A stretch of 64,000 bases of DNA from Taibaiella helva (lineage in GTDB: Bacteria > Bacteroidota > Bacteroidia > Chitinophagales > Chitinophagaceae): assembly GCF_003545695.1 (NCBI RefSeq), contig NZ_QUZZ01000011.1:62001-126000 (forward strand). Reading direction: 5' to 3'. Below are positions 22,499-37,871 of this stretch, piece after piece. Each line of letters starts with the position of its first letter. Position 1 is the stretch's first letter. The notes beneath the pieces are model-generated. The model ran no database searches. It was not told the DNA's origin and saw only the letters and a list, made by a program, of their open reading frames with translations. A program made the position numbers and the translations under genes.

Positions 22499-22660
22499 TC
22501 AGCAGTCGTCGCAGACGCTGTTGGGCTTGTGCGAAAGACAAGGAATATCTACCGTCCATCCGCCGCCTTTAAGCGCCTGCTGTCGCACTGCGTCCAGGTG
22601 GTGTATGATTTTCCTGGTCAGGCGCAGCTTTGGCCCCGTCATTGCTTTCTTCTTTTTCAT
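22499..22660 (-). CDS. Small Cys-rich GG-leader peptide (possible RiPP precursor)
   Basis: 53 residues, too short to be found by usual ORF length cutoffs. It opens MKKKKAMTGP, then KLRLTRKIIHHL, a basic/hydrophobic leader in which K11 to the GG at 32-33 spans 23 residues. After GGG comes a 19-residue tail with Cys41, Cys50 and Cys53, ending SVCDDC. The second peptide of the window (36479) has the same KLxLx[KR]xxIxxL pattern, the same 23-residue K-to-GG spacing and a CDDC motif. Bacteroidota natural-product (for example class I lanthipeptide) precursors have such leaders, so a RiPP precursor is the best guess. No maturation enzyme is nearby. It could also be a small unrelated protein. Confidence 0.6.
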   Translation of the reverse strand: MKKKKAMTGPKLRLTRKIIHHLDAVRQQALKGGGWTVDIPCLSHKPNSVCDDC

Positions 22661-33885: not shown

Positions 33886-36258
33886 ATGATGCATCGCATA
33901 CTCCTCGTCATGGGCCTGCTGCTGGCTCCGTCTGCCTTTAGCCAGCAGGCAGAAAAATACCACCGTGTACAAGTGAACACAGGTGAAGACGGTCTTGCAC
34001 GCCTTGCCCGTGCCGGGATAGCCGTCGATCATGGCGCCTTTAAGGAAGGCTTTTATTTCATCAGCGACCTGTCGGATACCGAGCTGCAGCAGGTGCAGGC
34101 GACCGGCCTGCAATACACGGTACTTATCAATGATGTAAGCGCTTATTACCGCGACCGCAACAAGACCACTGAAGCAGCAAAGCCGACCGATGCCGGCTGT
34201 ACCGATTGCCTGGATTACCCTACACCGGCCAACTTTCAGCTGGGTAGCATGGGCGGCTTCTTTACCTATCCCGAAATGCTGGCCATGCTGGATAGTATGA
34301 GAAGTAAATATCCGCAGCTGGTAACGGTAAAGCAAACCCTGGGCACAACTACTACACTGGAAGGCCGGCCCCTCTACTACGTCAAGATCAGCGATAATCC
34401 CGACAATGACGAGAATGAGCCGGAAGTACTGTACACTGCGCTGCACCATGCCCGCGAGCCGGAATCCCTGTCGCAGCTCATTTTTTATATGTGGTACCTG
34501 CTCGAAAATTACAGTACCGATGTGCAGATCAAATACCTGGTCGACCATACCGAACTGTATTTCGTACCCTGTGTCAATCCCGATGGTTATATATACAACG
34601 CTACTACCGATCCCGGCGGCGGCGGGATGTGGCGCAAGAACCGGCGAAACAACGGCAGCTCTTTCGGGGTGGATATCAACCGCAACTACGGCGCTTTCTG
34701 GGGCTATGATAATATCGGCTCTTCGCCCAGCGGCAGCAGCGATACTTATCGCGGTACTTCCGGCTTTTCGGAGCCGGAAACGCAGGCCATACGCGACTTC
34801 TGCAATACGCGCCAGTTCCGCATTGCGCTTAATGCCCATACCTTCAGCAACCTGCTGATCTATCCCTATGGTCATACCCCTTCTTTCCAGACGCCCGACT
34901 CCATGATCTTTCAGGCTATCGCTGCCGATATGACGGAGTGCAGCGGCTTTGCGGCCGGCACCGGCGATCAGACGGTAGGCTATGTAACGAACGGCGACAG
35001 CGACGACTGGATGTATGAAGAGCAGAGCACCAAAGGCAAGATCTTCTCGCTGACACCCGAGGCCGGCGACCAGTCCGACGGCTTCTGGCCGGTATCGTCC
35101 CGCATTATACCTATTGCGAAGCAGACTATGGACCAGAACCTGGACGCTGCCCGGCTCGCGACGGCCTATGCCGAAGTGAAGCCGCTGAGCGAGCCATTTA
35201 TTACGAATATCAGCAGCCATGTACCCTTCCGCTTCCGCAGGACGGGATTGGGAAACGGGACCTTTACCGTATCTGTTATCCCCCTCTCCGCCAATATCGC
35301 TGCGGTAGGGGCGCCCCGCGGCTTTACCAATCCTGCGCAGCTGCAGCAGCTGACCGACTCCATATCGCTGACGCTAAGCAGCGGCATCACCGGCGGCAGC
35401 ACGGTACGCTATGCTCTGCAATGGCAAAACAGTGATGGCTATACGGCAGCCGATACCATTACCCGCGTGTACGGTACCGACGTCCCGGTGTTCCACAGCG
35501 AGGGTAGCTCGCTCGATCCTTTTATAACAACAACCTGGGGTATTAGCAGCACGCAGTTTACTACTGTCGGTGGCAGCATCACTGACAGCCCCAACGGCGA
35601 TTATGCCTCAAATACGACCAGCCTGATCGCAACCAAAGACTTTATCGACCTTACAGGAGCGGATGCCGCCTATTTATCCTTCGACGCCCGCTGGGATATT
35701 GAAAAAGGATTTGACTATGTAACGGTAGAAGCTTCGGAGAATGGATCGGTGTATAGCCCGCTGTGTGGTTTATACACGCGCAAAGGCAACCACAACCAGG
35801 GCGAGGTAGCGGCGATGTATGACGGCTTGCAGCACGACTGGGTAAGGGAGATGATCGATCTGAATGATTATGCCGGTAAAAAGATCAAGCTTCGTTTTGC
35901 GTTGCACAGCGATGCCGGCCGGGAAAAAGACGGCTTTTACTTCGACGAGATGATAGTACACAAGATAGGAGAAACGGGGGTAGGTGTAGAGGAAAAGCGT
36001 ACTGAAAAGATATACCTGTCGGCAGCACCCAACCCGGCTACCGGTAATACAATGGTATCGTTCCGGTTGCCCGGTAGCGCCGGCAGTCTGCAGCTCACCG
36101 ACCTGGCGGGCAGGGTAGTGCAGCAATACTCCCTGCAGCGGGGACAACAGCAGCAGCGCCTGGATCTGGGCCACCTGCCTGCCGGTGTTTACTGTTGCAG
36201 GCTGGTTGCCGCTGCCGGCGACGCTTCGGCCGTGATCCGGATCGCAGTCCATCATTAA
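33886..36258 (+). CDS. Secreted M14 zinc carboxypeptidase with T9SS sorting domain
   Basis: 790 residues. Signal peptide at 1-20 (ends APSAFSQ). The M14 domain spans about 120-440: HHAREPE gives the Zn ligands His188 and Glu191, DINRNYGAFWG is the substrate-binding Asn-Arg motif, ALNAHTFSNLL has the third Zn-ligand His, and LTPEAGD has the catalytic Glu. A beta-sandwich module (about 540-690, with SFDARWDIEKGFDYVTVEAS) resembles immune-inhibitor-A-like/MAM modules. The last 80 residues are a type-A sorting domain (AAPNPATGNTMVSF, then LTDLAGRVVQ and PAGVYCCRLVA). It should be an extracellular carboxypeptidase in protein degradation. The start could also be the next Met. Confidence 0.9.
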   Translation: MMHRILLVMGLLLAPSAFSQQAEKYHRVQVNTGEDGLARLARAGIAVDHGAFKEGFYFISDLSDTELQQVQATGLQYTVLINDVSAYYRDRNKTTEAAKPTDAGCTDCLDYPTPANFQLGSMGGFFTYPEMLAMLDSMRSKYPQLVTVKQTLGTTTTLEGRPLYYVKISDNPDNDENEPEVLYTALHHAREPESLSQLIFYMWYLLENYSTDVQIKYLVDHTELYFVPCVNPDGYIYNATTDPGGGGMWRKNRRNNGSSFGVDINRNYGAFWGYDNIGSSPSGSSDTYRGTSGFSEPETQAIRDFCNTRQFRIALNAHTFSNLLIYPYGHTPSFQTPDSMIFQAIAADMTECSGFAAGTGDQTVGYVTNGDSDDWMYEEQSTKGKIFSLTPEAGDQSDGFWPVSSRIIPIAKQTMDQNLDAARLATAYAEVKPLSEPFITNISSHVPFRFRRTGLGNGTFTVSVIPLSANIAAVGAPRGFTNPAQLQQLTDSISLTLSSGITGGSTVRYALQWQNSDGYTAADTITRVYGTDVPVFHSEGSSLDPFITTTWGISSTQFTTVGGSITDSPNGDYASNTTSLIATKDFIDLTGADAAYLSFDARWDIEKGFDYVTVEASENGSVYSPLCGLYTRKGNHNQGEVAAMYDGLQHDWVREMIDLNDYAGKKIKLRFALHSDAGREKDGFYFDEMIVHKIGETGVGVEEKRTEKIYLSAAPNPATGNTMVSFRLPGSAGSLQLTDLAGRVVQQYSLQRGQQQQRLDLGHLPAGVYCCRLVAAAGDASAVIRIAVHH

Positions 36259-36478
36259 TCCGAGATATAAATAAAATTATTAAATAAATTATATGCAATT
36301 ATATAATAATGTTTATGCTATAATCGTTAAGAATGTCAAGCTGGCAAGTGCAATGAGATGCTGGAGATAACCCAACCAAAACAGCACGGCCGTTTACCCT
36401 CAAAAAAGTAAAAAACGCTGAACAACCGCTCCATTGGCGTAAAGACAGGAGAGGAATCCTATAAATTAAAAAAACAAC

Positions 36479-36709
36479 ATGAAAAAGACTAAATTGAACA
36501 TTGCAAAATTGCAACTAAACAAAGAGAAGATTGCCGAATTGACCGACGAATATGCTGGATTAATAATAGGAGGAACATATTATGCGGTGTGCGCCGACTA
36601 TACAAGGTTTTGCGATGTGATCATGCAAACGGGGACTTCTGTATACTGCGTGCCCCCAAACCCTGGCGACACGCGTTGTGATGATTGTGGTGTCTGCCCA
36701 CGTTTTTAA
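36479..36709 (+). CDS. GG-leader Cys-rich peptide, probable RiPP (lanthipeptide-type) precursor
   Basis: 76 residues. The leader (1-32) is basic with KLQLNKEKIAEL and ends IIGG, the pattern of Bacteroidota class I lanthipeptide/natural-product precursors. The 44-residue core starts TYYAVC and has six Cys (core positions 6, 13, 25, 35, 38, 41) and six Thr/Ser, ending TRCDDCGVCPRF. There is no further hydrophobic signal. A terminator-like hairpin follows about 30 bp after the stop, before an erythromycin-esterase-like gene on the same strand, as in RiPP loci where precursor mRNA exceeds that of the downstream gene. No cyclase, dehydratase or transporter is nearby, so modification would need enzymes encoded elsewhere. 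It may also be an unmodified small protein. Confidence 0.75.
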   Translation: MKKTKLNIAKLQLNKEKIAELTDEYAGLIIGGTYYAVCADYTRFCDVIMQTGTSVYCVPPNPGDTRCDDCGVCPRF

Positions 36710-36740
36710 CGAAAGAGAATGTTTTGCAACTTATTCCCAA

Positions 36741-36768
36741 GCCCTCTAACATAATGTTAGAGGGCTAT
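36741..36768 (+). terminator. Hairpin between the precursor peptide and the downstream gene
   Basis: GCCCTCTAAC pairs perfectly with GTTAGAGGGC over a 5-nt loop, then an AT-rich tail (TATTATA). It is positioned to attenuate read-through into the gene at 36785. Confidence 0.75.
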
Positions 36769-36784
36769 TATAAACGAGAAATGT

Positions 36785-37864
36785 ATGATGCAGCGAGCCA
36801 GTTTTATTAAATTGTATAAACTAATATCACTGATAGTCATTTTGTGTAATCCCGCATATTGTTTGGGCCAGGTGCTGACTGCTACAGACACAGGCCTTAT
36901 ACGCCGCGCAAAAGTTATTATATTATCGGAATGGCATTTATCGGACCTCTTTCCCCTATACAAACGTAAGCTAATTGAAAAGCTATATAGGGACGACGGG
37001 TTGACCGATCTTGTTTTAGAAACAGGAAAATCTACAGCCTATTTGCTGAACGAATACATAGCAACCGGTGATACTGGTATCATGCGCAGTTTTCCTTTAT
37101 TTACACAAAGGGACAGAGATTATTGGAAAGCATTTCGCAGGTATAAATTACCGTCAGGAAAACCGATAAGAATTCACGGAGTTGATTTTGAACGGATGTC
37201 TATAGTGCCGGCACTAAAGCGGGTATTGAAAAAAACAGGAAACACCAACAATGAACTTTACAGATACTTAGCAGCATTACCCGATACGATCCTGAATTTG
37301 TATAAAAATGATTCATTGATACCAGAACGGAGCGCTGTTATTCAAAAGTGCATGTCCATCTACAATTCAAATGTAAAATACTACAGCTCGATATATGACA
37401 ATGGGTATGTAGTGAAAGAGATTTGTACAAATACTGCTATAGAAACGGAATGGGATAAAAGATTTGATGCGATGGCACATAACCTTCGGTTGCTTTACAA
37501 TAAGAAAGCACACAAATATCTATTGATAGTAGGTATTTATCATGTGGATTGTCCTAATCCCATATATAAAGAGATGGAGCAGGAATATCAATTGCAAGAA
37601 AATGACATTGTGAATATTGCGCTTGTGGTCAAAGATTGTGAGGCCGAAGCCATGTATAGAGGAAAAGGATACGTCAAGCTAAGTACAAGCAGAAATATTC
37701 TGAACCACCCCGGCTTAGTTGATTCGCTGTATAAGCTCTATTCATTGCCTTGCACGTATCAGTTGGTTGATGTTAAGACCAGATTCCCAAATTACAAACC
37801 AGCCTTCAAGTGCGATTACATTCTGCCCATTGATTGTAAATGGAATGATTCAAAATGTAATTAA
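36785..37864 (+). CDS. Erythromycin-esterase-like/TraB-fold exported protein
   Basis: 359 residues. An N-terminal hydrophobic stretch (LYKLISLIVILCNPAYCLG, about 10-28) looks like a signal peptide. The body resembles the EreA/TiKi-type fold: VIILSEWHLSDLF (the Glu-x-His pair of the active site), then LVLETGKSTAYLLNEYI and PIRIHGVDFERMS, and KYLLIVGIYHVD with a later His. Related proteins include erythromycin esterases, TraB and Tiki proteases. Macrolide hydrolysis is possible but no resistance context is seen. GC content is lower than in surrounding genes (18 of 60 GC in 36781-36840), which suggests acquisition together with the precursor peptide. Confidence 0.65.
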   Translation: MMQRASFIKLYKLISLIVILCNPAYCLGQVLTATDTGLIRRAKVIILSEWHLSDLFPLYKRKLIEKLYRDDGLTDLVLETGKSTAYLLNEYIATGDTGIMRSFPLFTQRDRDYWKAFRRYKLPSGKPIRIHGVDFERMSIVPALKRVLKKTGNTNNELYRYLAALPDTILNLYKNDSLIPERSAVIQKCMSIYNSNVKYYSSIYDNGYVVKEICTNTAIETEWDKRFDAMAHNLRLLYNKKAHKYLLIVGIYHVDCPNPIYKEMEQEYQLQENDIVNIALVVKDCEAEAMYRGKGYVKLSTSRNILNHPGLVDSLYKLYSLPCTYQLVDVKTRFPNYKPAFKCDYILPIDCKWNDSKCN

Positions 37865-37871
37865 CAGTAAA

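Follow-up and report, generated by a model that had tools for sequence, protein, structure and literature searches.

What does a short peptide gene produce when no modification gene lies beside it, and which enzymes act on its product? The question arises at positions 36479-36709 of the window (the whole 64,000-nucleotide stretch of Taibaiella helva DNA analyzed here). There, a preliminary description had placed an orphan candidate precursor of a new family, either modified by enzymes encoded elsewhere or used unmodified. We find it probable that the gene encodes a class I lanthipeptide-type precursor, one member of a dispersed multi-precursor system that shares a few enzymes acting in trans. 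The earlier interpretation, taken as a whole, is partly supported.

Leader and core of the peptide gene

The gene has the organization first attributed to it. It encodes 76 residues, of which a basic leader ending in IIGG (MKKTKLNIAKLQLNKEKIAELTDEYAGLIIGG, residues 1-32) precedes a core of 44 residues (TYYAVCADYTRFCDVIMQTGTSVYCVPPNPGDTRCDDCGVCPRF) with six Cys and six Ser/Thr after the GG site (table 1). The leader matches NCBIfam model NF038153 (class I lanthipeptide leader L1a) over residues 1-32 with 29.3 bits and an E of 7.2e-7; the curated cut-off of the model is 22 bits. A chance open reading frame is ruled out by this match together with the enrichment of Cys in cores relative to leaders and long open reading frames. 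A new leader family is ruled out as well, and the earlier claim of one was wrong for the leader, as NF038153 is already curated and its LxLxKx5L/GG motif is in print (PMC7268733). The section of that source on Bacteroidetes class I LanAs describes the LxLxKx5L leader as often GG-ended, with a C39 protease often in the cluster.

Table 1. Positions of the features discussed, numbered along the window
Feature	Position	Strand	Basis
AT-rich islet, 1.6 kb, with the precursor and one further gene	36259-37865	+	Synteny with G001
Candidate 5'-UTR RNA element, H-type pseudoknot, 42 nt	36414-36455	+	Comparative alignment, covariation
Element, P1	36415-36418 with 36437-36440		
Element, loop UGAACAA	36419-36425		
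Element, pseudoknot helix	36426-36432 with 36448-36454		
Element, linker AAAGACA			
Lanthipeptide-type precursor gene	36479-36709	+	Open reading frame with ATG start, 76 aa
Leader, 32 aa ending in GG, NF038153 L1a	36479-36574	+	NCBIfam match
Core peptide, 44 aa, 6 Cys and 6 Ser/Thr	36575-36706	+	Translation
Hairpin, 12 bp, between precursor and next gene	36740-36766	+	Folding
359-aa protein, distantly erythromycin-esterase/ChaN/Tiki-like	36785-37864	+	Weak matches, homologues

No orthologue of the peptide was found among the precursors of two congeners (70 from G001 and 62 from G147, incomplete sets taken from regions around the matches listed, down to E about 3e-5). The last 17 residues of the core resemble those of a paralogue, C21:118685 (E 0.001), and the tail pattern C-x-D-C-x-V-C-P-R is common to the peptide, this paralogue, and the G001 orthologue of the paralogue. 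A scan of genome contigs also gave one match of 11 residues, which comes from an unrelated MAG (L109) and was put down to chance.

Spacing within the core suggests which residues could be joined. Thr1, Thr10, Thr19/Thr21/Ser22, and Thr33 precede Cys6, Cys13, Cys25, and Cys35/38/41, respectively. A reasonable guess is therefore that as many as four thioethers could form, two of the six Cys remaining outside them. Few Ser/Thr stand ahead of the last three Cys, and the C-terminus, CDDCGVCPRF, is rich in Cys and has no Ser/Thr.

Dispersed precursors and enzymes encoded in trans

A genome-wide search for further peptides with the same leader, one of the checks first proposed, was productive. Across the organism's own genome (G000; 4.82 Mb in 34 contigs, with the window on contig C1), NF038153 has 71 matches at E ≤ 10, with 51 above the cut-off and 20 below it. 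A model derived from the leaders of G000 itself was then used to accept 70 leader-bearing peptides, all with Cys in the core. They come from 74 candidate places; of the four left out, one lacks a locus, the one at C28:291048 is truncated at codon 23, one is not a precursor, and the one at C34:158154 has no in-register ATG. The 70 precursors form 54 loci (5-kb linkage) spread over 12 contigs, and 45 of these loci are single. A LanB, LanC, or C39 gene is present within 10 kb of seven precursors, and the other 63 are farther than 10 kb from any. Cys accounts for 13.7% of residues in the 70 cores (Thr 12.7%, Ser 7.2%) versus 1 of 2,196 residues in their leaders (0.0%) and 1.1% in 25 long open reading frames of the window, possibly including shadow frames. 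The window itself has a second leader-bearing peptide, missed at first, at 22499-22660 on the minus strand (53 aa). Its core by the GG rule is GWTVDIPCLSHKPNSVCDDC, its leader scores 19.1 bits, under the NF038153 cut-off, and it has an orthologue in G001 with 90% core identity.

The same genome encodes enzymes of the expected kinds. Searches for LanB, LanC, and C39 transporter genes, also proposed at the outset, gave two, four, and one matches over cut-off, respectively, and a second C39 match that is partial and below cut-off. None of the matches listed is on contig C1; the LanB and LanC genes are on C31, C32, and C33 and so do not share a cluster with the gene at 36479-36709. A hub on C33 groups a two-domain (N plus C) LanB of 1063 aa with a C39-ABC transporter and HlyD, preceded on the opposite strand by a histidine kinase and a LytTR regulator. 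At a second C33 locus, a LanC accompanies a LanB whose N and C parts are separate proteins. A family scan confirmed two more LanCs and the genome search the fourth; the zinc-ligand motifs WCYG and CHG are conserved in every one. No LanM-sized protein is among the LanC-domain hits of the genome; all four PF05147 matches are in frames of 398-408 aa, as stand-alone LanCs. Cyclases outnumber dehydratases four to two, and three of the LanCs (C31:776, C31:52091, and C32:13168) have no neighboring LanB, each instead adjoining one or two precursors.

Leader and LanB also tend to occur together. Among 147 sampled genomes of the family, the leader is over cut-off in 10 and LanB is present in 20, including 9 of the 10 leader-positive genomes (Fisher p 2.3e-8, a test that ignores relatedness); two of the nine belong to the genus of the window. 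Within the genus, leader matches at E ≤ 1e-3 number 46 in G000, 62 in G147, 88 in G001, and 0 in G101, the only one of the four without LanB. The co-occurrence and the off-contig enzymes support the earlier suggestion of modification in trans. We suggest that a shared LanB, acting in trans, recognizes the KLxLxK leader and converts Ser/Thr of the core to dehydro residues, that a LanC then closes thioether rings, and that the C39 transporter would cut after GG and export the product.

Other genera of the sample have at most seven leader matches per genome at E ≤ 0.01, and in G071 and G036 tandem precursors are on the contig that bears LanB. Therefore, within the sample searched, the large dispersed precursor set is a trait of this genus. 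The exception to co-occurrence is G140 (2.5 Mb in 130 contigs), where LanB has no match and three leaders belong to the subtype seen at 36479-36709. Either its assembly has a gap or another modifying enzyme acts there, and a leader by itself is thus no proof of processing by LanB. The G140 leaders are of the AKLQLNKEK type and located on C100 and C89 (L110 and L111).

Comparisons between species show which core residues are kept. Of 71 reciprocal best core pairs, 34 join G000 with G001, and 31 of these passed length and score filters. Median identity is 84% for cores and 77% for leaders, for pairs picked by core similarity, and the core is the more similar part in 20 of the 31. Estimates of dN/dS are about 0.10 for cores and 0.14 for leaders, both approximate with dS near saturation. 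Cores retain 176 of 181 Cys (97%), 224 of 257 Ser/Thr (87%), and 626 of 855 other residues (73%), with Ser/Thr kept significantly more often than other residues (p 1.6e-6). Conversely, Ser/Thr are the less retained in leaders (84 of 121 versus 678 of 859 other residues) and in the neighboring carboxypeptidase used as a control (96 of 129 versus 538 of 653). Ser/Thr with a Cys two to seven residues downstream are kept in 180 of 202 cases versus 44 of 55 for the rest, a difference that is not significant (p 0.11). Orthologous cores are thus shown to be under purifying selection that favors Cys and Ser/Thr, a pattern that fits residues predicted to form (methyl)lanthionine, unlike disulfide-only peptides. 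The proposed alignment of homologues bears out conservation of core Cys and Ser/Thr at the level of the family. Because the core of 36479-36709 has no orthologue, this evidence covers the family and not this core.

These data bear on the view that the leader is a signal for C39 export and cleavage only and that the cores are secreted unmodified and rich in disulfides. Such a view would accommodate the Cys-rich cores and the single C39 transporter, the LanB-negative G140, and, at our locus, the Cys-rich tail devoid of Ser/Thr. But a disulfide model predicts conservation of Cys only, and Ser/Thr are retained at 0.87 versus 0.73 for other residues in orthologous cores, opposite to leaders and the control protein. 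The joint presence of leader and LanB across genomes, their joint absence from G101, and the curation of the leader family as class I lanthipeptide also speak against it. We consider export of unmodified peptides unlikely, and use without modification, one of the two options first offered, is disfavored for the precursor family.

We read the system as a class I, in-trans analogue of the prochlorosins, for which 29 scattered precursors are described in the relevant part of PMC12328550. For the synechococsins, the corresponding part of PMC10783134 gives 79 SyncA. Like these class II systems of picocyanobacteria, modified by ProcM and SyncM, the genus has scattered precursors with GG leaders and diverse cores that would be served by few enzymes in trans. 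Unlike prochlorosins, it has a class I LanB and several separate LanCs, without a LanM-sized LanC-domain hit; an L1a rather than a Nif11 leader; and cores that are individually conserved between two species, even more so than leaders. Leader, LanB/LanC/C39 logic, and phylum are those of the Bacteroidetes class I lanthipeptides, as far as PMC7268733 sets these out. Described Bacteroidetes precursors are, however, clustered with their enzymes, whereas nine-tenths of those of G000 are unlinked by our 10-kb measure. Class I clusters of Runella and Chryseobacterium are reported to yield dehydrated peptides in the parts of PMC9993889 and PMC9576775 that deal with them. We found no description of a dispersed class I precursor system in the open-licence PMC literature.

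If correct, our reading gives Bacteroidota a LanB/LanC counterpart to the prochlorosins, in which few enzymes serve about 70 mostly unlinked precursors. Cores with an orthologue in the sister species are conserved and therefore their products are probably used, unlike members of a random library. A search for such peptides limited to 10 kb around LanB or LanC genes would, in G000, overlook roughly nine of every ten.

The islet and its downstream gene

The peptide gene is in an islet of 38% GC, compared with 52% for the window, between genes for an M14 carboxypeptidase and ribosomal protein L31 (rpmE), both identified by Pfam names. At the syntenic site in G001 the islet is absent, and the rpmE terminator follows within about 30 nt of the carboxypeptidase stop (L191). 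The carboxypeptidase of G147 has other neighbors and is uninformative on the islet. The hairpin reported after the peptide gene was confirmed (z -4.7, with none of 200 shuffles folding equally well); it has no clear U-run 3' of it.

The next gene encodes a protein of 359 residues with an apparent signal peptide, as judged by eye. It has no Pfam match over the gathering cut-off and no NCBIfam match; against PDB sequences it matches 2rad, which we take to be an erythromycin-esterase relative, with an E of 0.008. Six further homologues are present in the 147 family genomes. Four of the six hit PF04187 (ChaN/Tiki) and two of these also hit PF05139 (erythromycin esterase), all below cut-off. Residues E49, H51, E79, and H253 and six other positions are invariant in the family. 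An erythromycin-esterase-like gene had been reported next on the strand; a gene is indeed there, but the likeness is weak, though the homologues support it.

Homologues of the 359-aa protein connect it to lanthipeptide loci. That of G001 is between an AKLQL-type precursor and a LanC, and that of G132 is between a LanC and a LanB. No leader and no LanB was seen around the other four, and none of eight neighboring proteins scanned is a LanC. The label orphan for the peptide gene thus holds in that no LanB, LanC, or C39 match was listed on C1, but not in full, as homologues of the gene downstream adjoin LanC or LanC/LanB genes in two genomes. A graspetide locus provides a precedent: it has an erythromycin-esterase homologue and a double-Gly peptidase, and the authors suggest a role in modification or resistance (PMC8939145, in its treatment of that locus). 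The resemblance, an EreA-like protein beside a RiPP precursor with GG processing, has limits, since the locus as presented there is gammaproteobacterial and relies on an ATP-grasp enzyme and not on LanB/LanC. Because of the homologues in LanC and LanB loci and this precedent, we take the 359-aa gene as a putative pathway accessory. Its EreA/ChaN-like product may be specific to the peptide and act in tailoring, processing, or self-protection. We recognized no description of EreA-like genes in lanthipeptide clusters in the open-licence PMC literature. A candidate conserved pair of precursor and downstream gene in G140 was rejected, as the neighboring 377-aa gene there is not homologous to the 359-aa gene. 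The G132 locus also has a 301-aa open reading frame (L200:7434-8336) beside its LanC, EreA-like, and LanB genes, with a C-terminus (LSIGRGCSEATGCRRVS) that resembles cores of G001 and G147 (LSIGxACSxRNSCAR) and a long unrelated leader.

The islet could also imply a different history, in which the precursor arrived with it and is not necessarily acted on by the resident LanB, the peptide being dehydrated by a LanB and left mostly uncyclised or being modified by another, unlinked RiPP enzyme. The AT-rich composition of the islet and its absence from G001 fit this account, as do the balance of six Cys to six Ser/Thr, the scarcity of Ser/Thr before the last three Cys, and the occurrence of the leader subtype in the LanB-negative G140. 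The gene nevertheless shares its 5'-UTR element with other precursors of the genome, including C31_2077 beside a LanC, and homologues of its downstream gene are inside LanC or LanB/LanC loci. We regard this history as improbable, and modification by the shared LanB and LanC enzymes as the better account of the locus.

A candidate structured RNA in the 5'-UTR

The element upstream of the peptide gene, which the preliminary description had not included, is separated from the start codon by 23 nt and followed by an A-rich stretch. Copies share a fold in which a P1 helix (xYGC/GCRx) is combined with a C-rich arm that pairs across P1 with a G-rich arm, with an optional hairpin-like insert; the pseudoknot helix of the window copy has one internal mismatch. 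Folding without pseudoknots predicts P1 and is not unusual for the composition (z -1.4). A two-block pattern of the element is upstream of 8 of 70 precursors in G000 and of 6 of 69 and 8 of 61 in the congeners, versus 19 of 3,000 background windows. A covariance model of the pseudoknot helix only, built from 22 copies, identified 31 copies at E ≤ 1e-3 (11 in G000, 10 in G001, and 10 in G147) in 26 loci chosen for having hits, and 22 of the 31 are the copies used to build it. Wider searches covered 267,650 and 397,103 bases, with many overlapping loci and an enrichment in precursors. The copy before 36479-36709 is the only one in the 64-kb window to score below E 0.05, and this search found none upstream of the peptide at 22499-22660. 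All copies but one are 14-28 nt before a precursor start, the remaining one preceding the truncated C28:291048 precursor.

Covariation supports the fold. In the alignment of 31 copies, which is fitted to the pseudoknot helix, 93.0% of cells pair, compared with 43-56% when slid by one to three columns. Cells with double changes number 52 versus 16.2 in shuffled alignments (0 of 500 shuffles), and pairs with a double change number 8 of 10 versus 6.2 (13 of 500). Double changes affect each of the seven pseudoknot-helix pairs; in P1, which is outside the model, the three counted pairs are 100% paired, and one has double changes. An anchor-based parse of the 22 copies yields 84 of 88 and 133 of 154 pairs versus 73.6 and 114.0 with shuffled partners (0 of 5,000 each). 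Related sequences can exceed such shuffles, and the weight is on the slid control and the repeated double changes. For 14 of 31 copies, a TANNTTTG box, which we take to be the Bacteroidota -7 motif, occurs in the 70 nt ahead of the element (at 17-65 nt), versus 2.3% of 70-nt background windows, and the element is therefore most likely transcribed. None is within 70 nt upstream of the element of the gene at 36479-36709. This last point, the shortness of the element and its position upstream of genes, and the inverted repeat carried by other precursors (below) would suit a DNA operator rather than a folded RNA, a highly improbable alternative given the two crossing, covarying helices, the variable-length hairpin-like insert between conserved blocks, the boxes upstream of other copies, and an H-type arrangement of arms not expected of a palindromic operator.

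The element appears to be confined to the genus in the material searched. Window positions 36200-36850 gave no Rfam 15 match at E ≤ 5, and in eight further loci no match at E ≤ 1 covered a copy of the element. A search of 32 further loci (L091-L101, L109, and L206-L225; 254,725 bases; eight from congeners) showed no copy just before a known precursor of another genus, and the same holds for 17 LanB-bearing loci of other genera. The best hit in these 32 (E 4.7e-4) is by coordinates inside the coding region of a G071 precursor and was judged to be chance. Viral contigs gave no matches to two element patterns, the first of which is too strict even for the window's own copy. We recognized no description of such an RNA before precursors in the open-licence PMC literature.

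With its conservation, covarying structure, and 5'-UTR position, the element is a candidate riboswitch-like RNA. The preQ1-I and SAM-II riboswitches are small H-type pseudoknots. The element is like these and SAM-V in topology, small size, and 5'-UTR position and unlike them in its loops (UGAACAA and AAAGACA), its lack of an Rfam match, and its location before RiPP precursors. It could adjust translation of a subset of precursors together. We tentatively propose, at somewhat less than even confidence, that it represents a previously unrecorded class of small pseudoknotted RNA that is dispersed with RiPP precursors as one post-transcriptional regulon. One signal, either a metabolite or a pathway protein such as a LanB, LanC, or regulator, would control whether a chosen subset of the roughly 70 precursors is translated while others use a promoter-proximal inverted repeat, and the mix of products from the shared enzymes would thus be determined by RNA. 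If true, the pseudoknot is a new RNA structure and a handle on how the cell chooses which precursors to make.

The inverted repeat, ACTGCA..TGCAGT, precedes 20 of the 70 G000 precursors, 20 of 69 from G001, and 5 of 61 from G147, the last being near the background of 166 of 3,000 at the same looseness. Its usual distance from the start codon is 55-65 nt, and in many cases a TANNTTTG-like box follows closely, as at C30:206851 and C21:130463; the repeat looks like an operator for a second co-regulated precursor set. The precursor at C28:291048 (L012), which is interrupted by a stop at codon 23 and retains the pseudoknot element upstream, appears to be in decay.
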